64,000 bases of DNA, from positions 1 through 64,000 of the forward strand of contig JACREZ010000004.1 of assembly GCA_016212665.1 (NCBI GenBank). The letters are read 5' to 3'. Both the position numbers and the translations under genes were made by a program. This DNA is from Ignavibacteriota bacterium (GTDB lineage Bacteria > Bacteroidota > Ignavibacteria > UBA10030 > SZUA-254). The notes below the pieces were generated by a model. It did no database searches. It was given only the letters and a program-made list of their open reading frames with translations, and was not told the origin of the DNA. Each line of letters begins with the position of its first letter. The first letter of the stretch is position 1. This document shows positions 41,346-59,036 of this stretch, piece after piece.

Positions 41346-42704
41346 ATGAGCAACAACGGTAACGAAAAAAACGTATTTCTCCTGCTTGCTTTGAGCTTGA
41401 TGAGTATTTCTCTCTTTAGTCTTGCTTGCGAAGAAGAAGAACTGAAAATTATTATCCCGCCCCACGTACCGACAATTGCAATAACTGTTGATGATGTTGG
41501 CGTAACCGAAGCGTGGCTGAAAATTGGAAGCATAGACAGCACAACGCTTGGCAATATTATGGTGAAACATGATACCACCGTTGTACTGACTGCAAACGTT
41601 ACGGCACGTGAAACAATAGTTGTAAGCGAACAACTCCTACCAAACAAACACTATACATTTAAAACATACAAGTTGGACAACACAACACTTATTGACTCCA
41701 GTTTACCATTGAACCTGACAACGATCGATACTACAAGCCATGATTTCACATGGACATTTGATACACTTGGAGACGGGAATGCGAGTATACTGCACGATGT
41801 GTGCATTGTGAATGATACGCTGGCGTATGCTGTCGGGGATATAGAAATATTAGATACAAGTAATAATTTTGTACAACATAATCTTGTGGTATGGAATGGA
41901 AAAACATGGGAAGTGAAAAGGATGTATTTACCCAGGTATGGATTTGATTGTTCGTTGGTTACCCATAGGGCTTCACCACTCTATTCAGTTTTTCAATTTC
42001 CATCGGGGAGGATTATCTTTTCTGATGGTAGTAGCACGATGGTATTATTGGGGGATACTACAAATACAAATTATCCCTGTATGCCTGCAGGAACAGGGTC
42101 GGGGACAATATTGAAAATCTGGGGAGTGTCAGAAAATGATTTTTATTGTATTGGTAGGAGAGGAACACTTATCAGGTATTTGAACGGGGTATGGAAAAAA
42201 CTTGAAAGCGGTACGGGGTACAACGTAGAAGATATTTGGGGAGCGGAAAACCCAAGAACGAAGGAAACGGAAATACTTGCAATTACAACCAGTAATCCGC
42301 TTCTGTTAAAAATAGAAGGAGAAACTTCAACTCTCCTTTCTGGCGAAGGATTACGTTTTTCTCAGAGCGGAATTTGGTTTGTTCCGGGGAAAAAATATTT
42401 TATAGCCGGAGATGGGTTATTTGCAAAAAACTCACCGTATTCAACAGAGCAATGGAGGGAAGTAGTTGGGACAACAAACTTTAATTATTACAGGGAAGCA
42501 ATCCGTGGAAATGGATTGAACGATTTTGTCGTGGTATGCCACTACGGAGATATTTTTCACTTCAACGGTTTTACCTGGAAGAGCTATCGGCAAATTACTT
42601 ATATGAACGGTGTGTATTATCGTGTTGCAATGAAAGGGAATATCGTTATTGCCGTCGGAAGGGTAAACAATACGGCAATTATTGCTACGGGAAAACGAAA
42701 ATGA
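41346..42704 (+). CDS. Hypothetical lipoprotein
   Basis: 452 residues. A lipoprotein signal peptide ends in the lipobox LFSLAC, followed by acidic residues. The rest lacks a domain I can name with confidence. Residues about 45-140 look like a fibronectin-type beta sandwich. The later part has repeated short segments (ILHDVCIVNDTLAYAVGD, IWGVSENDFYCIGRRGTLIRYLNGVW) typical of a propeller with one strand motif per blade ('GxxGxIxxYNGxxW'). Similar proteins are common in this group as surface lipoproteins of unknown role. It is one of only three plus-strand genes. Confidence 0.75.
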   Translation: MSNNGNEKNVFLLLALSLMSISLFSLACEEEELKIIIPPHVPTIAITVDDVGVTEAWLKIGSIDSTTLGNIMVKHDTTVVLTANVTARETIVVSEQLLPNKHYTFKTYKLDNTTLIDSSLPLNLTTIDTTSHDFTWTFDTLGDGNASILHDVCIVNDTLAYAVGDIEILDTSNNFVQHNLVVWNGKTWEVKRMYLPRYGFDCSLVTHRASPLYSVFQFPSGRIIFSDGSSTMVLLGDTTNTNYPCMPAGTGSGTILKIWGVSENDFYCIGRRGTLIRYLNGVWKKLESGTGYNVEDIWGAENPRTKETEILAITTSNPLLLKIEGETSTLLSGEGLRFSQSGIWFVPGKKYFIAGDGLFAKNSPYSTEQWREVVGTTNFNYYREAIRGNGLNDFVVVCHYGDIFHFNGFTWKSYRQITYMNGVYYRVAMKGNIVIAVGRVNNTAIIATGKRK

Positions 42705-42935
42705 AAGGTGTGCCACCATGAGAAGAAGATAAAAATCCCGTTCCGTTGTTTGTGCCACCGAGACTGGCAACTATCGTACATTTCTCTGGCTAATTGCCAC
42801 AGGAAGGCATCCCTCAAAACACCACATTTTTGGCAATTTCAAAAAACCTCAAAAACAGCGCCATCTGGCACATCCTCCAAATAATGCCCGTTTTTGAAGC
42901 GAACGGAAGGGTTGTCCCAAGTAACGGAACGCCCG

Positions 42936-43291
42936 GCACTTGTCCCGGAACAGTTTGCACTCGTCCCGGACCGGTCCGCACTTGTCCCGGAACGGTCTGC
43001 ACTTGTCCCGGAACAGTTTGCACATGTCCCGGAACGGTTTGCACATGTCCCGGAACGGTTTGCACTTGTTCCGGAACAGTTTGCACTCGTCCCGGAACGG
43101 TCCGCACTTGTCCCGGAACGGTCCGCACTTGTCCCGGAACGGTCCGCACTTGTCCCGGAACAGTTTGCACTCGTCCCGGAACAGTTGCACTCGCGCGGAA
43201 ATGGGTCGCACTTGTGCAGAAACGGGTTGCACTCGCGCGGAAACAAGTTGCACTCGTACAGGAACAGTTTGCACTCGTACAGGAACAGTTT
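42936..43291. repeat. 21-bp minisatellite, about 17 units
   Basis: The consensus unit is GCACTTGTCCCGGAACGGTC plus one more base. Units 1-11 are exactly 21 bp, unit 12 (43167-43186) is one base short, and units 13-17 are more divergent. The array is open in nearly all frames. The plus frame reading ALVPE(R/Q)(S/F) has four of seven variable sites at third codon positions. After the one-base deletion the related heptapeptide ALVQEQF continues in another frame. This could be the remnant of a repetitive protein gene or a non-coding array. Confidence 0.85.
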
Positions 43292-43357
43292 GTTCACGTG
43301 GGAAAGCAATGTGAAATTTCCCATGGGGGTTGTCCAAAAAAATCCAAAAGAGGGTAG

Positions 43358-43553: not shown

Positions 43554-46500
43554 CTACTTTCCAATCAGCACAAACGAAGCCCAGTTCATCGGAGCGGAAG
43601 TTTGTTCTGAAGAAATCATCCGGAGTTTTGCGGCGCGCAGCGCAGCGCTGTTGCTCTGCTTCTGAATCATCCCTCTGAAACATTCCACCATCAACCCGGA
43701 AGTTGATTCATCATTCACCTGCCATAAGGAGACAAGCAGATTCGACGCGCCTGCGTAGAGAAAGGCGCGGGTCAATCCCAACATCCCTTCTCCGTTCATA
43801 ATTTTTCCCAATCCTGTTTCACATCCGCTCAGCGCAATCACATCTGCTCGAAATGTGAGATTGTAAATTTCTCCCGTGTATAAAAATCCGTCTTCGTTCG
43901 CGTTCTTCTCCTCCGTAAATACAATGGCGGAAAGTTCCGGCTGTTCCGTGTTGACCACAACATGCGAAGCGAAATGAACATACCGGTAATTCCAGATATC
44001 GGCAGATTTGAAATTCTTTTCCGTTGCATCACTGCCAATGAACGCCACTGCTTTTGCCGTCTTTTCCGAACTCCAGAGTTTTTCAAGGAACGGGCGCGTA
44101 TCAAACAGAGCAAATGTTTCCTTCACTTCCCGCTCTGCAAACGGGAGAGCGGGAAACGTTCTCTGCTTCCCCGAAACAAACCGGTTCACCGTTTCTTCAT
44201 TTTCCGATTCATAGTTCGGCGCTACGGCAAGATACTGCTTTGGAGTTGGCGGTTGCTTTTTGTTTTTCAATTCCAACAACAACGTTGCCGATGGCGCGTA
44301 ACTGACTGAATGGTCTCTGAGAAGATACGGCAAGTCGGCATACGAATTATCGGAACGGTTCACCTCTGCCGTCAGCAACGCCTCGAACGGGATGAGATGC
44401 AACATTCCGTCCGGCACGATGATGAGATTTTTGCCGGTGATGGATGCTTGCACAGGTCGGAGGAGATAATTATACAAGGTGAACGCGTTTTTTGTGTACT
44501 GGATAAATTGCCGGTTGGTTATTCCTTCCCGAAATTGCCTGATAGAAGTTTCCAACATCGCATCCACGGGAACAGAGACTGCTGTTAAGGAATGTTTGGT
44601 CACGACAAAAATTGCAAGCGCGCTCTCTCCCGCGACATATTCAATCAACACATCATTCGTTCCCAACAATTTCTGCTGAAGTTCTTGTACGGTTGCCGTT
44701 CGTGCCTGGTATTTCAAGGAATAATACTCCGGGTACTTTTTTTCCAAATGATTGATATGCGATTCGTACATTCGCTTCAGAGAAAACAATCGTGACCGCC
44801 ATTGGGTAATTTTCTTTTGGTCTGCCTTCTTCCCTTTTACACCTTCTTCGTTGAGATTTTTTTCCAACGAACTCAAATCCACTTTGAACTGATATTCCTT
44901 CCGCAGAACACTGTCCGGGAGCCCGGCAAACTGTTTCGCTTTGGAATCGTTCATTGCTTCCAGTAACAACCTCGCTTTGCTTTTCTCGGCAAACCTCAAC
45001 GCCTTCTCCCGGTACGATGCATTCTTCGTTTCTTCAAACAATTGCATTGCAGTTCTCACCGCCCCTTCATCTACGCGTGAATATTTTTGTGTGAGATTGA
45101 GTTTGGAATATTCTGCTGAGTAGCGCCTGTTCATTCTGTCAATCAAATCGGAAGCAAGCGAATACGTTTGAAACGATGCCGAAAGGTCGCCGGGGAATGG
45201 TTGATAAGCCGCCGCACGTACCTCGAACGCTTTTGCTTTTGCCTCAAGCGCAGAAAGAAGCACGACCTCGGAACGAATGTTCTCCAATGCGGGATTCTCA
45301 GGAAACGATGTTGGTTTGAAGGAAGGTACAACCGTGGCAATGGCAGATTGGAAATACTCTATGGCCTCATCGAATTTCTTCAATCTCAATGATGCGTTTC
45401 CAAGTCCGATATAAATTTCTCCGGTTTCCGGGTGGTGCGCATCTAACTTTGCCTGATTAATTGCCAACGCTTTGTTGAAACAAAATATCGCTGAATCGTA
45501 TTGTTGCAAATCAGAAAAAACTTCACCGATAGTTGTGTATCCTTTCGAGAGAAGCGGATGCAGACTATCGTACACAGCCAATCGAATTGCCATGGATTTC
45601 CGTTGATACTCCAGCGCACGTTCGAGATTGTGCATGGATTGATACACTTTTCCGAGGTTCAGATAGTTTATAGAAACCGTTGGATGCTTTTCACCAAACA
45701 CCTTCAGCCGTATCCGTAGTGATTTAGTTTGGAACTCGATTGCTTTTTCATACTCTCCCGTTTCATGATAGATGACAGCAATATTGCTGTATGGATTTGC
45801 AAGGTCAGGACTCTCTTCTCCTTTTTTCTTGAGTTCAATTTCGACATCCTTGAAAAAATACTCCAATGCTTTTGCGTGGTCGCCCATGTTCCACAATACT
45901 AACCCGATATTATTGAGGGTGTTTCCGATTTGTGCATCGTCGGGAGGAAGAGTTTTCTGTTCGATAGAATATCCCTTGTTCATATATTCGAACGCTTTCT
46001 CGTAATCGCCTTTGTTCCAATAGACTATGCCGAGATTTCCATATACTTTTCCAACCTCAGAATGAATATCCCCAAACAATTTCAACCTCACGTTGAGCGA
46101 TTTGTTGTAGATGCTGATTGACTGGTCGTACTCGCCCATTCTTCTATACACAATGCCAAGCGAGTTGTATGCCTGCGCCATATTGAAATGAATTTCTCCC
46201 AAATGTTTCTTTCCCAACTTCACTGCTTTATTGAGATACTCAATCGCGTCCTGATAAATTTCCTTCGCCGTATAATTTCTCCCCAGCACAATCAAACTCA
46301 TCATCTGCCTCTCAGGATTTTTCTCTTTCTCGAATTGCTTCAAAGCATTCTTCAAAACGGCAATGGAGCTATCATACTTGTTTGCTTTGTACAATCCTTC
46401 ACCGAGGGCAAACAGAACATCTCCTTCAGTTTGTTGCTTCGTGGTATCGGCTTGAAGTATTTCATTATTCTTTCCATCAAAAAAAGCAAGGCATACCACG

Positions 46501-46571
46501 CCCTGTATCTTCATCAGCAAAATACAGAAAGAAAGAAATCTCAATAGACGAAATATATTTGAATGTGACAT
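43554..46571 (-). CDS. TPR-CHAT caspase-like protein
   Basis: About 1005 residues. An N-terminal hydrophobic stretch (about 9-30) suggests export or membrane attachment. Eight to nine tetratricopeptide repeats of the kinesin-light-chain type (NNIGLVLWNMGDHAKALEYF) span about 65-420, followed by a helical linker. The C-terminal CHAT domain (about 690-1005) keeps both catalytic residues of the caspase-like fold: the His in VHFASH near 869 and the Cys in ALSGCETGLG near 917. CHAT proteases cut a protein partner recognised through the repeats; the target is unknown. The ATG at 46571 is preferred to a TTG at 46631. An ECF sigma/anti-sigma pair lies directly upstream on the same strand. Confidence 0.92.
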   Translation of the reverse strand: MSHSNIFRLLRFLSFCILLMKIQGVVCLAFFDGKNNEILQADTTKQQTEGDVLFALGEGLYKANKYDSSIAVLKNALKQFEKEKNPERQMMSLIVLGRNYTAKEIYQDAIEYLNKAVKLGKKHLGEIHFNMAQAYNSLGIVYRRMGEYDQSISIYNKSLNVRLKLFGDIHSEVGKVYGNLGIVYWNKGDYEKAFEYMNKGYSIEQKTLPPDDAQIGNTLNNIGLVLWNMGDHAKALEYFFKDVEIELKKKGEESPDLANPYSNIAVIYHETGEYEKAIEFQTKSLRIRLKVFGEKHPTVSINYLNLGKVYQSMHNLERALEYQRKSMAIRLAVYDSLHPLLSKGYTTIGEVFSDLQQYDSAIFCFNKALAINQAKLDAHHPETGEIYIGLGNASLRLKKFDEAIEYFQSAIATVVPSFKPTSFPENPALENIRSEVVLLSALEAKAKAFEVRAAAYQPFPGDLSASFQTYSLASDLIDRMNRRYSAEYSKLNLTQKYSRVDEGAVRTAMQLFEETKNASYREKALRFAEKSKARLLLEAMNDSKAKQFAGLPDSVLRKEYQFKVDLSSLEKNLNEEGVKGKKADQKKITQWRSRLFSLKRMYESHINHLEKKYPEYYSLKYQARTATVQELQQKLLGTNDVLIEYVAGESALAIFVVTKHSLTAVSVPVDAMLETSIRQFREGITNRQFIQYTKNAFTLYNYLLRPVQASITGKNLIIVPDGMLHLIPFEALLTAEVNRSDNSYADLPYLLRDHSVSYAPSATLLLELKNKKQPPTPKQYLAVAPNYESENEETVNRFVSGKQRTFPALPFAEREVKETFALFDTRPFLEKLWSSEKTAKAVAFIGSDATEKNFKSADIWNYRYVHFASHVVVNTEQPELSAIVFTEEKNANEDGFLYTGEIYNLTFRADVIALSGCETGLGKIMNGEGMLGLTRAFLYAGASNLLVSLWQVNDESTSGLMVECFRGMIQKQSNSAALRAAKLRMISSEQTSAPMNWASFVLIGK

Positions 46572-46675
46572 TATACCGAGTATCTCATCGTAAGTCCGGC
46601 ATAACGTAAGGGAAAAGTTGGAAAGAGACAAGAATTGTTATCAGCCGAAGTTACGCAACACCGTTGTTTGATGTC

Positions 46676-50691: not shown

Positions 50692-51000
50692 AGCCAACCT
50701 CGTTACTTGATTATTAAACCAGTGAGCCATCACTTAAAAGTTTCGGCTCATCAATGAATTATTTCAGCCGTAGTTTAGCAAAAGTTCAAATAAAAGTCAA
50801 GTCACACAGAGGATTTGTGAGTGGTTAGGTGTGAGTGGTGAGTAGGTTGTAGGTAAAAGGTGGAAGGTGATAGAAATATTCACTGCTCAGCGCTCACCGT
50901 TCTAAGCTCTATGCCCTAAGCCCAATGCCTAAATCGTCAATCGTCAATCTTAAATCATTTTTCAATCCGCAATCCGCAATCGGCAATCCGAAATCCGAAA
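50692..51000. other. Intergenic region filled largely by a heptamer array
   Basis: Apart from the array at 50818-51004 and about 120 AT-rich bases that must hold the promoter of the small T9SS protein, nothing else is visible. Confidence 0.55.
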
Positions 51001-51004
51001 TCAG
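50818..51004. repeat. 187-bp heptamer array with changing words
   Basis: An apparently unbroken 7-base register across about 27 units. GTGAGTG- and GGTNNNA-type words fill 50818-50873. C-rich words (CTCACCG, CCCTAAG, CCCAATG) follow from 50879, then CGTCAAT, then CAATCCG/AAATCCG up to the lptD stop codon. The G-rich left part and C-rich right part face each other around an AAATATT centre. Confidence 0.75.
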
Positions 51005-53601
51005 TAGATTCCTCGGTCGCTTCCCGACTTCGTCACTTTCAAATCCTGCAACTGCGATGCCTTCACGCGGATTTCAAATTGGTAACTTCGATATTGCCCG
51101 ATGGGAGTCCATGAGAAGTTCATCGTCCAGCAATGCAAGTCGCGGGAGATATTCATGCGGGGGTAAACAAACTCCTGACTGACAAAATCGTAGCCGCTTG
51201 CAACTGCAAACTTCCATTTCTCCGTCAAATTGAAATCAAGATTTCCGTTGATGCTCGATGAACGAACGACTTGCGGGTTTCTGCTTTCCGAGTAACTCCA
51301 ATCCAAACTTAAATTCCATGGAATACTGAAATCCGGTTCTGCCATGCTGTCATACGAACGGGAACGAACGGGTTGCACTCCGGCAGAGGAATCCCGCTGT
51401 GTCGGCTGACCACCCGATTTTTTCTTCTCGCCGGAAAGCGATGTGGAAAACCGGATGTTGAAATTCGTCAGACGCGCAAGCCGACCGTTCTCGCTCAACT
51501 CGAACTTGTTTACACGATTGAACCTTCCGGGTGATGATTCTTCCAACTTGTAGAAATCAAAATTCGCACCTCCATTAATATCAAACGTTCGTCCAATGCC
51601 CGTTCTGAAATTCATTCCGAGATTACTCAGGTTCATGCTGTCGGCGGTGAAATCATAACTTGCGCCAAGCCCGACATTGAGCAGTTGAATCTTCGTCCCT
51701 TCTTTTCCTTCCGCTTCGGGAATCGTTTTCATCTCAAACACATTCCCGACATTGAAGTTTGCATAGAGCCGTTTGTCTTCGGGATTATCGCCATAGACTT
51801 GTTTATCATACGCGAACGAAACGGAAGGCGTCAGCGTATGACGAATCGCTGAAATGCCAAGCACGTTCGGTTGAAGGATTCCGAAAATACGTGTGTTCAA
51901 CGAAAGACCTGTCGAGAGTGTGCCGATACGCTTTGCCTCTTTTTTATTCATGTATGAAATGGAACTATCGGACGTATCGGCAACGGGAATATCGGTACTG
52001 CTGAAATCCCGCGAATCGCTGAAGTGAAGCGAGGGCGAAACGGTGATGTAGCCAAGTTTCGGCGCGATGCTGATGCTCATGCTTTGCCCGATGCGCTGTG
52101 CGTTGCCGCGCTGAAATTCCTCGACGGCAAGCAACGTGTCAACTCCGTTGAGATTCGTTTTGATATTGTTGACCGAGACATTTGTTTTCGAGCGGGAGTT
52201 CGATGCGCTCATGCCGTAATTCAAACCGATTTGTTCGTACCAGTTCAGGTCAGATGATTCATCGCCCGCCTTCTTTCTTCTGAACGGATAACTCGTTCCA
52301 TGATTGAAACTGAGCGACGGCATCGTTTCATACACATCTCCCTTCACCAAATATTGCTGACGACTGACATTGAGCGAAATGCTGTTCGGCGATTCCCAAT
52401 GTTTCGAGAGTGTCGCGTTGGAGGAAATTGTTTGTTGAAGCGCTTCCTGATAATCAATTGTGTTTCGATACGCGTTATCGCTCGCGAAAGTGAAGTCAAC
52501 ATTCAGGCGCGTCGTCGGGTCAATATCCTGATTATGGTTGATGGTTGCCCGGTACGATTCTTCTTCCGTTCGCCGCGGGTCGTTCTCTTCGCCTGCGTGA
52601 AGCCTCTTATACTCGCCGCTGAACGAACCGGTGAAATTATATCGAACATTATATTGAAAGTTGGAAGCCGCCGCCCATCCGCCTTTTGAGTACAAATCGC
52701 TTTGCACTTTCCAATCCATGTAATCATTCATCGCCCAGTAAAAACCGAGATGACGAAGGAAGCGACCGCGTGTTCCGTCCTCGCCGTACGCCGGCGCGAT
52801 AATCCCTGAACGCCTCCCCCCCTTGTTCGGAAAGACTGCGAACGGCAACGCAAACACCGGCACATCAGCAATGAACAAATAGACCGGCTCGGCGACAACC
52901 TGATCCTGCATCTTCACTTTCATCCTCGGACTTCCGAAATAATAGTGTGGCTCCGGCGCGTCACATGTTGTGTATCGTCCTTTTGCGACGAACAAAATAT
53001 CCTTGTCCACCTTCTTGATGTCTTCGCCGTGATAAAATCCTTCGTCCATTTTTGTGTCGGCGATATTGATTTTTCCTTTCTTCGTTTGAAAGTTATACGT
53101 CAGCGTTCTGCCATCGTACTGCTCGCCTCCGTCTTTCATCACCGGCGTACCTCGGTAACCGCCATGCAACGTGTCTGTCGAATCGGCAACTCCTTCCGCA
53201 CTCAGCATATTCGTCTTCCAATCAATCCCGATTTGCTCCGACTTCAATTCCATTGTTTGATATTGAATTGAAGAATTTTTGTAGAGCGACATTGTTCTCG
53301 TCGAGAAGTGATAAATAATCGAATCGGTACACGAGTATGTCACCACCGTATCAATTCCACCCGAAGCAGCAACTGTATCTTTCAACACCGAAGTCGAGTC
53401 CGTCAGAACAGAATCAACCCGAACTGTATCTGTTGATGAAAAAGGATTACTCAGTCGGGATTCTTGCGCACTTCCGTTTCCATAAAATATGAAAAACAAA
53501 AATAGCATCAATCCGAAATCCGAAATCCGAAATCCGAAATCCTTCCAAAGACTTGTACGAATCTTGTTTACAGATTGGGTTTGTAAAAGGCGATGCATCA
53601 T
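51001..53601 (-). CDS. lptD: LptD-like outer-membrane LPS assembly protein
   Basis: About 866 residues. An OstA/LptA-like N-terminal domain (about 75-200: SLYKNSSIQY, LTYNFQTKKGKINIADT) precedes a large beta-barrel with the LptD signature FPNKGGRRSGIIAPAYGEDG. LptD inserts lipopolysaccharide into the outer leaflet. The ATG at 53601 follows the ROK gene stop by five bases. The signal-peptide core (MLFLFFIFYGNGSAQ) lies unusually far in, after a roughly 30-residue extension partly encoded by a heptamer array (53509-53542). An ATG at 53508, just past the array, is an alternative start that gives a normal signal peptide. Confidence 0.85.
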   Translation of the reverse strand: MMHRLLQTQSVNKIRTSLWKDFGFRISDFGLMLFLFFIFYGNGSAQESRLSNPFSSTDTVRVDSVLTDSTSVLKDTVAASGGIDTVVTYSCTDSIIYHFSTRTMSLYKNSSIQYQTMELKSEQIGIDWKTNMLSAEGVADSTDTLHGGYRGTPVMKDGGEQYDGRTLTYNFQTKKGKINIADTKMDEGFYHGEDIKKVDKDILFVAKGRYTTCDAPEPHYYFGSPRMKVKMQDQVVAEPVYLFIADVPVFALPFAVFPNKGGRRSGIIAPAYGEDGTRGRFLRHLGFYWAMNDYMDWKVQSDLYSKGGWAAASNFQYNVRYNFTGSFSGEYKRLHAGEENDPRRTEEESYRATINHNQDIDPTTRLNVDFTFASDNAYRNTIDYQEALQQTISSNATLSKHWESPNSISLNVSRQQYLVKGDVYETMPSLSFNHGTSYPFRRKKAGDESSDLNWYEQIGLNYGMSASNSRSKTNVSVNNIKTNLNGVDTLLAVEEFQRGNAQRIGQSMSISIAPKLGYITVSPSLHFSDSRDFSSTDIPVADTSDSSISYMNKKEAKRIGTLSTGLSLNTRIFGILQPNVLGISAIRHTLTPSVSFAYDKQVYGDNPEDKRLYANFNVGNVFEMKTIPEAEGKEGTKIQLLNVGLGASYDFTADSMNLSNLGMNFRTGIGRTFDINGGANFDFYKLEESSPGRFNRVNKFELSENGRLARLTNFNIRFSTSLSGEKKKSGGQPTQRDSSAGVQPVRSRSYDSMAEPDFSIPWNLSLDWSYSESRNPQVVRSSSINGNLDFNLTEKWKFAVASGYDFVSQEFVYPRMNISRDLHCWTMNFSWTPIGQYRSYQFEIRVKASQLQDLKVTKSGSDRGIY
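53509..53542. repeat. Heptamer array in the 5' end of lptD
   Basis: Nearly five identical ATCCGAA 7-mers. On the minus strand they read DFGFRISDFG in the leader of the LptD-like protein, directly before the hydrophobic signal core. Confidence 0.85.
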
Positions 53602-57020: not shown

Positions 57021-58235
57021 TCAACTTTTCTGATACCATTTTGTCTTGGGTTGGTACGATGTTTTGAGTGATAGTTTCTGACGATGTCGCTCGAACGCCA
57101 AACCGATAAGTTTATCGAGCAACGTTGAGTAGGAAAGCCCGGACGCCTGCCATAACTTCGGGTACATGCTGATGGAAGTGAAGCCGGGTATCGTGTTGAT
57201 TTCATTCAAATAAAACCTGTTTGTGCCTTTTTCGACCAAGAAATCCACCCGTGCCATGCCCGCACAATCAATCGCTTTGAAACCAAGCAACGCGTACTTC
57301 TGAATCTTTTTGATGACTGATTTAGGAAGTTTGGCGGGGATGACTTCCCTTGATTTCCCGTCAACATACTTTGCATCGTAGTCGTAAAACTCGTTCGAAG
57401 AAATTATTTCTCCCGGAACCGAAGCGAGAGGTTCATCATTTCCCAAAACGCTCACTTCAATCTCACGAGCATTTACGATTCCCTTCTCGATAAGAATTTT
57501 TCTATCGTACTCCATTGCCAACTTCATTGCACGTATCAATTCCTTCCTGTCATGCGCTTTGGAGATTCCCACACTTGAACCGGAGTTTGCCGGTTTCACG
57601 AAACATGGATATTGTAATTTTGTCTCGACCTCTTTGATAAGACGTTCGCGCCTTGTTCTGAACTCCTTGCTCAAAAACCAAACGTATGGTGCAACCGGAA
57701 TCCCCGCTCGTTCAAACAGTTGCTTTGAAATTATTTTATCCATCCCGACCGATGAACCGAGAACTCCAGCACCAACGTACGGAAGGTTGGCAAGTTCGAA
57801 CAACCCTTGCATTGTTCCATCTTCCCCAAACGCTCCGTGAAGCACAGGAAAAAGCACATCTAACCGGGAAACCATCGGCGGATATATTTCTCCATACACA
57901 CCGACTAATCCCTGAAACGTCGGGTCGGGAAGAACTATTTGCACCGTTTCATTCACCACCCATTGACGCTCTTTCAAAATGGTCATGACATTTTCCGAAC
58001 TCATCCATTTTCCATCCCGTGTAATGCCGATGGGAATTACTTCATACTTTTTCTTATCCAACGCATTCATCACTGCGGTTGCAGAAACAAGTGATACTTC
58101 ATGCTCGGCAGAACGACCACCGAACACAACACCGACTCTTATTTTGGGTTTGCGGTTTCTGCCCGCCTTGGGCGGGTGCGTTTGTGGTTTGAAGTTTTTG
58201 ATTTCTGATTTCTGATTTCTGATTTCTGATTTCAT
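57021..58235 (-). CDS. ddl: D-alanine--D-alanine ligase
   Basis: 404 residues; joins two D-Ala for peptidoglycan. The ATP-grasp motifs are complete: [42 protein letters not shown] and [10 protein letters not shown]. The family normally begins at [10 protein letters not shown], but here about 31 residues precede it. They are encoded by heptamer repeats and a CCCGCCTTGGGCGGG hairpin, and there is no ATG, GTG or TTG in frame between the ATG at 58235 and the conserved start. The leader therefore seems to be translated. It lies 60 bases after the aldolase gene. Confidence 0.94.
58147..58235. repeat. Heptamer array forming the 5' end of ddl
   Basis: Five (T/A)TTTCTGA-register units (58199-58233) give the peptide [10 protein letters not shown] looser 7-base register (GTTTGCG, GTTTCTG) continues inside the gene to about 58147 and flanks a CCCGCC/GGCGGG hairpin. 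Confidence 0.8.
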
Positions 58236-58315: not shown

Positions 58316-59036
58316 GAATTACTTTCCGTACATCTACAGAACTTTCTGTATTCTCTTCACCAACAACACACGAAATCTTATCGGTGATTTCTTTCCCGTA
58401 CGATTGCTGACTGATTGCACGAAGTTTTTCAATCTCTTCCTGTGAAAGCAATTTCTCACCGCCCAACATTTTTGCAACAAACGTAATATGCGCGGCGTGT
58501 TCGACTTTTTCCATTTTGTAATACGCATCCCACAAATCCCTACCGTACGTTACCACGCCGTGATTAGCAAGCAAGATTGCATCGGTCTGTTTGACAAACG
58601 GAGCGATAGACAAAGCAACTTCTTCCGTTGACGGTGTTGCATACTCAGCCAACGGAACTGCTCCAAGTCCGACAATCACTTCAGGAAAGACACAACTTGT
58701 GAGAGGTACTCTCGCCGCCGCAAACCCCGTTGCATAAATCGGATGCGCATGAACAACAGCGTTCACGTCAGGGCGTTGTTGGTAAATGAAAAGGTGCATT
58801 CTGAATTCGGTTGATGGCTTATGATTTCGGATTGCGGATTGCGGATTGCGGATTACAATATTTCCATTGTTATCTACTTCAAGAATATCATCTTCCGTTA
58901 CCATGCCTTTGTTGATGCCGCTTCGTGTTGTAAGAAAGTTGCCGTTCTCCAGACGAGCGCTTACGTTGCCGTCGGTGGCGGAGACGAAACCTTTGAAGTA
59001 AAGGCGATTGCAAACTTCAACTAAATCATGAAACAT
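58296..59036 (-). CDS. Class II aldolase/adducin-family protein
   Basis: 246 residues. The zinc-binding HAHP motif (AVVHAHPIYATGFAAAR), the upstream SATDGNVSARL substrate loop and the later LLANHGVVTYG are all present, as in L-fuculose-phosphate aldolase, ribulose-phosphate epimerase-like or methylthioribulose-phosphate dehydratase enzymes. The exact substrate is not resolvable. An insertion of about ten residues (VIRNPQSAIRN) encoded by a heptamer array precedes the conserved KPSTE motif. The ATG at 59036 itself lies in another heptamer array. Confidence 0.85.
   Translation of the reverse strand: MFHDLVEVCNRLYFKGFVSATDGNVSARLENGNFLTTRSGINKGMVTEDDILEVDNNGNIVIRNPQSAIRNHKPSTEFRMHLFIYQQRPDVNAVVHAHPIYATGFAAARVPLTSCVFPEVIVGLGAVPLAEYATPSTEEVALSIAPFVKQTDAILLANHGVVTYGRDLWDAYYKMEKVEHAAHITFVAKMLGGEKLLSQEEIEKLRAISQQSYGKEITDKISCVVGEENTESSVDVRKVIRQMLDA
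58821..58856. repeat. Heptamer array inside the aldolase gene
   Basis: Five 7-mers, mostly GATTGCG, read on the minus strand as IRNPQSAIRN. They lie between the conserved GNI strand and the KPSTE motif. Confidence 0.82.

Follow-up and report, generated by a model that had tools for sequence, protein, structure and literature searches.

What does a tandem array of 21-bp units represent when the reading frames that run through it are open: a decayed gene for a heptapeptide-repeat protein, or a structural array of non-coding DNA? The earlier note on this locus, which lies in the genome of an Ignavibacteriota bacterium (G000), had proposed both readings. We analysed the array in the window, i.e. 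the whole stretch of 64,000 nucleotides, and searched for its relatives in other genomes, which were sampled at one genome per species, several of them being drafts.

Anatomy and coding status of the array

The array is intergenic, located between a 452-aa gene ending at 42704 on the plus strand and a TPR-CHAT gene ending at 43554 on the minus strand. The features of the locus are as follows.

41346..42704 (+), lipoprotein-like gene of 452 aa from a multi-copy family, the upstream neighbour
42814..42931 (+), leader of 118 bp directly 5' of the array, with 75-76% identity to its counterpart at contig C16 of G000
42890..42931 (+), a pair of degenerate units of 21 bp (GTTTTTGAAGCGAACGGAAGG, GTTGTCCCAAGTAACGGAACG) that keep the phase of the array and are near-identical in the copy on C16
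42932..43292 (+), tandem array with consensus GTTTGCACTTGTCCCGGAACG, 17 units of 21 bp, one of them being 20 bp (phased by hand)
43163..43182 (+), 20-bp unit, the sole exception to 21 bp among the window units
43183..43292 (+), diverged sub-block formed by the last five units, CGCGCGGAAA / GTGCAGAAAC / GTACAGGAAC
43554..46631 (-), TPR and CHAT-domain gene, the convergent neighbour on the far side

TRF placed the array at 42936-43292 with a period of 21, 17.0 copies, 82% matches and a score of 374, and together with the hand phasing this confirmed an array of 17 units with one short unit; its true phase, however, starts 42 bp before the array proper, at 42890, with the two degenerate units. The near-palindrome GTCCCGGAAC, previously ascribed to each unit, was present in about the first twelve, with GTTCCGGAAC (a perfect palindrome) in one unit and GTCCCGGACC in another, but not in the last five (CGCGCGGAAA, GTGCAGAAAC, GTACAGGAAC). 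A sequencing error, which had been considered as the source of the short unit, is unlikely because a sister array on contig C34 of G000 carries two 20-bp units. The units abut directly and unique spacers between repeats are absent, which rules out a CRISPR array. The search of Rfam gave no match reaching the gathering score, phage DNA gave no match to the array, and the exact unit pattern returned two unrelated, chance-like matches among GTDB contigs examined with TRF. Short arrays of 7-bp units (CAATCCG, AATCCGA, TTTCTGA, GATTGCG) are also present in the window, at 50963-51002, 53510-53542, 58195-58233 and 58823-58854, and periods of 7 and 14 are common in the G000 genome.

All six frames of 42932-43292 are without stops. 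The openness of nearly all frames had thus been correctly observed, yet it is uninformative about coding, because dinucleotide content and a period of seven codons produce such openness: dinucleotide-preserving shuffles of the unit leave on average 5.55 of the six frames open. Over the arrays, open frames numbered 93 against 50 in column-permuted controls, and 152 against 139.5 in dinucleotide-preserving controls, the latter excess being unclear. Similarly, the heptapeptide FALVPE(R/Q) does resume in another frame past the short unit, but any repeat would do likewise. Coding would single out one frame, and none stood out when silent and replacement changes were compared in each frame. Silent changes accounted for 23, 21, 18, 22, 21 and 5 of the 55 differences from the consensus, hence were near-equal (18-23) in five of the six frames over both strands, and the frame favoured earlier (FALVPER, 21 silent) was no better than four others, including VCTCPGT with 23. 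Furthermore, codon-position variability exceeded chance at p<0.05 in 0 of 28 such arrays, which therefore show no three-base periodicity, 20-bp units occur in two arrays, i.e. that of the window and its homologue on C34, and many sister arrays of period 21 contain stops. The C16 array does run in frame into a downstream gene, which would suit a coding array; however, this gene has its own start and a signal-peptide-like sequence past the array. The gene (L025, 6570-9815) encodes a Peptidase_S74 protein (endosialidase chaperone). A heptapeptide-repeat gene, decayed or living, is thus very improbable in spite of the open frames and the continuing heptapeptides; the window array is non-coding DNA.

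Related arrays and their period

The search for homologous arrays yielded two further arrays with the window unit in G000 (C34:191376-191605 and C16:56783-57083) and arrays with a similar unit in G301, a genome from another family of the order. The second of the earlier readings, the non-coding structural array, is thereby supported and extended, since arrays of period 21 form a genome-wide class. The C34 array ends its contig (L002), the contig end lying inside the array; some arrays thus break assemblies, and copy numbers are maybe underestimated. The C16 copy shares the 118-bp leader with the window, the last 42 bp being near-identical, and no homology between the two was found 3' of the array. 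About 25 bp of the leader (near 42891-42915) is identical at the 5' edge of an array on contig C37 of G000, whose units differ. The window unit was absent from the same-genus genomes G001 and G002, both incomplete drafts. The similar unit, which agrees at 16 of 21 positions, is carried by six arrays in G301. A common leader is visible at five of these, and it is kept also beside an array with different units (C57 and C76, 81% over 88 bp). Leaders are therefore shared within each of the two genomes, even where the array units differ. At four G301 loci (L097, L098, L099 and L101) we additionally observed a common tail of about 300 bp 3' of the 21-bp array, consisting of degenerate units, each about 20-23 bp long (CCGGAACTCCCGATACC...). 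Within arrays, block patterns revealed duplications of one, two or four units.

We then surveyed 459 kb of G000, nearly all of it chosen without regard to arrays, the exceptions being the window and locus L024. Out of 28 tandem arrays with a period of 16-130, 21 had a period that was an exact multiple of 21 (14 at 21 bp, 4 at 42, 2 at 84 and 1 at 105). Some of the 21-bp arrays were short AT-rich pairs of units, and a coding frame contains at least one array (L137, 42 bp). About ten were long and intergenic; by extrapolation, the whole G000 genome may contain 80-100 of these, and three other genomes of the order, likewise sampled, yielded few such arrays. A signal at lag 21 was detected in 28 of 30 collected arrays, which differ in sequence and range in G+C from 0.23 to 0.69; period partly guided the choice of this collection, and the 459-kb sample is the less biased of the two. 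The arrays showed no sub-period of 7 or 10-11 bp. The class is thus one of intergenic arrays with units of 21 bp (or 42, 63, 84, 105), irrespective of sequence.

The helix-Fn3 gene family beside the arrays

A 205-aa gene lies downstream of the C34 array, and its homologue (43% identity) lies downstream of one of the G301 arrays. Proteins of this family, about 205 aa in length, have a helical-looking N-terminal part and an Fn3-like C-terminal part, and they look dissimilar to known DNA binders. Searches of Pfam, NCBIfam and PDB gave no clear match to the core family, and no member was found in plasmids, phages or viral contigs; one array-associated protein had a weak match to Pfam fn3, and a wider family profile picks up apparent Fn3 repeats in large proteins. 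Counting fragments, G000 has eleven family matches and G301 has 17; no other genome of the order has more than three.

Period-21 arrays are located preferentially just upstream of the helix-Fn3 family. Using a fixed rule (a period differing by no more than one base from a multiple of 21, a length of at least 60 bp, up to 700 bp upstream), we found arrays at 13 of 27 family genes versus about 1% of ordinary genes (5/245 in G000, 1/89 in G301 with family genes removed, 0/128 in G071 and 1/112 in two others), all control genes coming from these five genomes. More distant homologues were then collected in two sets on the basis of their sequence only. In the first, which was scored by visual inspection of TRF results and included two genes already known to be array-free, 9 of 13 had an array: all seven G100 copies, one in G196 and one in G406, which belongs to another class. 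None was present at two G175 copies or at the G071 and G323 genes. A second set, from previously unused genomes and scored by the fixed rule, had arrays at 13 of 22 loci. The units differ from locus to locus across family genes; several family genes are array-free, and some have an array downstream. In an apparently orthologous cluster of the family gene and a 106-107-aa gene, found on G000:C34 and on C188 of the congener G002, the array, its position and its period are kept, and the units are seemingly unrelated.

The 106-107-aa gene (..GCVGIRIYYG..PCPPxC..) lies 3' of the family gene at L024 7048-7371 and L183 4787-5107, and as a conserved downstream partner it was seen at these two loci only. 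Beside it, L024 holds genes for membrane proteins and a histidine kinase. At L183 2331-3600 (G002:C188), a homologue of the 452-aa gene of the window, split by a RAYT-like transposase gene with flanking REP-like hairpins, is followed by the period-21 array and then by the helix-Fn3 gene. At L128 (G301:C63), a RAYT-like gene lies between the family gene and a short period-21 array; the RAYT-like genes near these two family loci look incidental. Other small helical genes, whose ends are rich in lysine, also had arrays of period 21/42 upstream (L138 11773-11948, ..KKKSEYKSP; L139 10100-10276, ..KKRKPRKKK). The idea that an array acts as antisense by matching its own gene was rejected, the comparison giving a weak sense-strand excess only, probably from degenerate units just past the array.

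Many G000 arrays have no adjacent family gene, and the window array is one of them. A family gene accompanies the related arrays G000:C34 and G301:C1; none lies within 700 bp downstream of the window array, and a profile search found no family member anywhere in the window. Linkage to the 452-aa gene family was rejected, as none of 19 other loci of that family examined had a period-21 array. At the orthologous site of the congener G001, a large repeat-protein gene comes immediately after the CHAT gene, the array and the 452-aa gene both being absent. If arrays of this class act in cis on family genes, the window copy would therefore be an orphan, probably left by gene loss or copied along with its leader.

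Possible roles and comparison with known systems

We tentatively favour, at not quite an even chance, a DNA element acting in cis, whose 21-bp step, equal to two helical turns, would count while the letters drift. A spacing of two helical turns would explain most simply why the step is fixed and the letters are free. Arrays with steps of 10-11 or 31-32 bp are absent, however, and the cause may therefore lie in the 21-bp unit itself or in common descent. As the block patterns suggest, arrays would grow by duplicating one or more whole units, and the letters would be homogenised and drift locus by locus with the step staying at 21 bp. The array could then offer a putative protein tolerant of sequence drift a series of sites aligned along the same side of the helix, and copy number might tune the expression of the adjacent gene. 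Consistent with such an element are the related arrays at other loci of the genome, of which one shares the leader, the similar unit in a species of another family, the concentration of periods at multiples of 21 over a wide range of G+C, the association with the family genes, the cluster common to G000:C34 and G002:C188, the leaders kept where units differ, the failure of the coding reading and the dyad symmetry of about half the arrays. Against it count the distance from array to start codon at family loci (45 to 425 bp), which is loose for a promoter element, the family genes that are array-free or have an array downstream, the many G000 arrays with no adjacent family gene, and the dissimilarity of the family proteins to known DNA binders. 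In its class-wide form, this proposal would give each small helix-Fn3 gene a private array, renewed by whole units and read by its spacing, with a process that always makes 21-bp units; we consider this wider form rather unlikely.

Equally doubtful is an origin as functionless minisatellites, by which one old 21-bp element spread and diverged, slippage and unequal crossing-over copying whole units and so keeping the period. The leaders common within each genome, the related units in G000 and G301, the block duplications and the G301 copies with leader and tail, which resemble a dispersed element, argue for it. However, it offers no reason for the position of arrays ahead of a single gene family, seen across many families of the class and also in a second class, or for the survival of the period in old, strongly diverged arrays.

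The symmetry of the units raises the further idea of an RNA element, the array being transcribed in a 5' leader and acting through successive small hairpins or binding sites on the mRNA. Self-complementary units exceeded column-permuted controls in 13 of 29 arrays at period 21 and 15 of 27 at 42, i.e. in about half, and RNA folding of the arrays gave a similar picture. For the window array, dyad symmetry reached p 0.007 at 21 bp and 0.002 at 42 bp against column-permuted controls, in which dinucleotides are not kept. Moreover, some arrays end only 45-70 bp before the start codon, with scant room for a promoter between. On the other hand, many arrays are without such symmetry, covariation between units is weak, and the plus-strand RNA, folded for a part of the window array, does not surpass dinucleotide shuffles (z -1.02). 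The RNA element is thus improbable, and we regard the dyad symmetry as a lead only.

Bacterial tandem repeats are usually regarded as accidents of single loci or as families of a single sequence. A class of repeat that preserves its length but not its sequence, beside one unstudied gene family throughout a bacterial class, would point to an element read by its spacing or to a repeat-making process of fixed length. The tendency of the present arrays to lie just before one family of small genes across relatives hints at a role for spacing over sequence, and they offer a handle on a multi-copy protein family that lacks a clear Pfam, NCBIfam or PDB match.

Several known systems share parts of this anatomy. 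Iterons of plasmid origins are direct repeats spaced at about two helical turns, specific in sequence to each replicon and located upstream of a gene; the period-21 arrays, in contrast, are chromosomal and many per genome, lack an adjacent Rep protein, and their associated protein is unmatched to any known family. The window array itself has no rep gene beside it, its neighbours being the lipoprotein-like and TPR-CHAT genes, which speaks against an iteron origin. Repeat-tuned promoters, such as those with 7-bp repeats upstream of the H. influenzae hmw genes, likewise place tandem repeats upstream of a gene, where their number could tune expression, but the period-21 units are long, different at each locus and associated with a gene family class-wide. 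REP/BIME elements, which have their own RAYT transposases, resemble the arrays in short units, intergenic position and inverted symmetry, whereas the window array has no adjacent RAYT gene.

Among open papers we found no published description of period-21 arrays, which is weak evidence of novelty, and one relevant work, on BrickBuilt, a minisatellite-MITE of Porphyromonas gingivalis (Klein et al. 2015, PMC4596501). BrickBuilt has a 23-nt unit (AGAYCATARTATCCTCTCRTRTG) of one sequence for all copies, and a leader and tail with terminal inverted repeats resembling IS5-family elements (PMC4596501). As it is the closest published anatomy (PMC4596501), we considered a similar non-autonomous mobile element with an internal minisatellite. 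The leader plus array at several loci, the leader, array and tail of G301, and the joint absence of array and 452-aa gene at the congener site are in keeping with this, and we nevertheless hold it to be quite improbable: around the window copy only a weak 10-bp inverted pair (90%) spans the array, this copy is tail-less, and units vary between loci, unlike those of BrickBuilt. The window array has spacer-free intergenic units at several loci and a conserved leader, its unit is GTTTGCACTTGTCCCGGAACG of 21 bp and not the 23-nt BrickBuilt unit, and neither a conserved tail nor terminal inverted repeats were found. Thus, the class has in common with BrickBuilt a spacer-free intergenic tandem array behind a conserved leader, several copies per genome and the breaking of assemblies (PMC4596501), and differs from it in having a period of 21 bp, locus-specific units, no terminal repeats found and a tie to one gene family.
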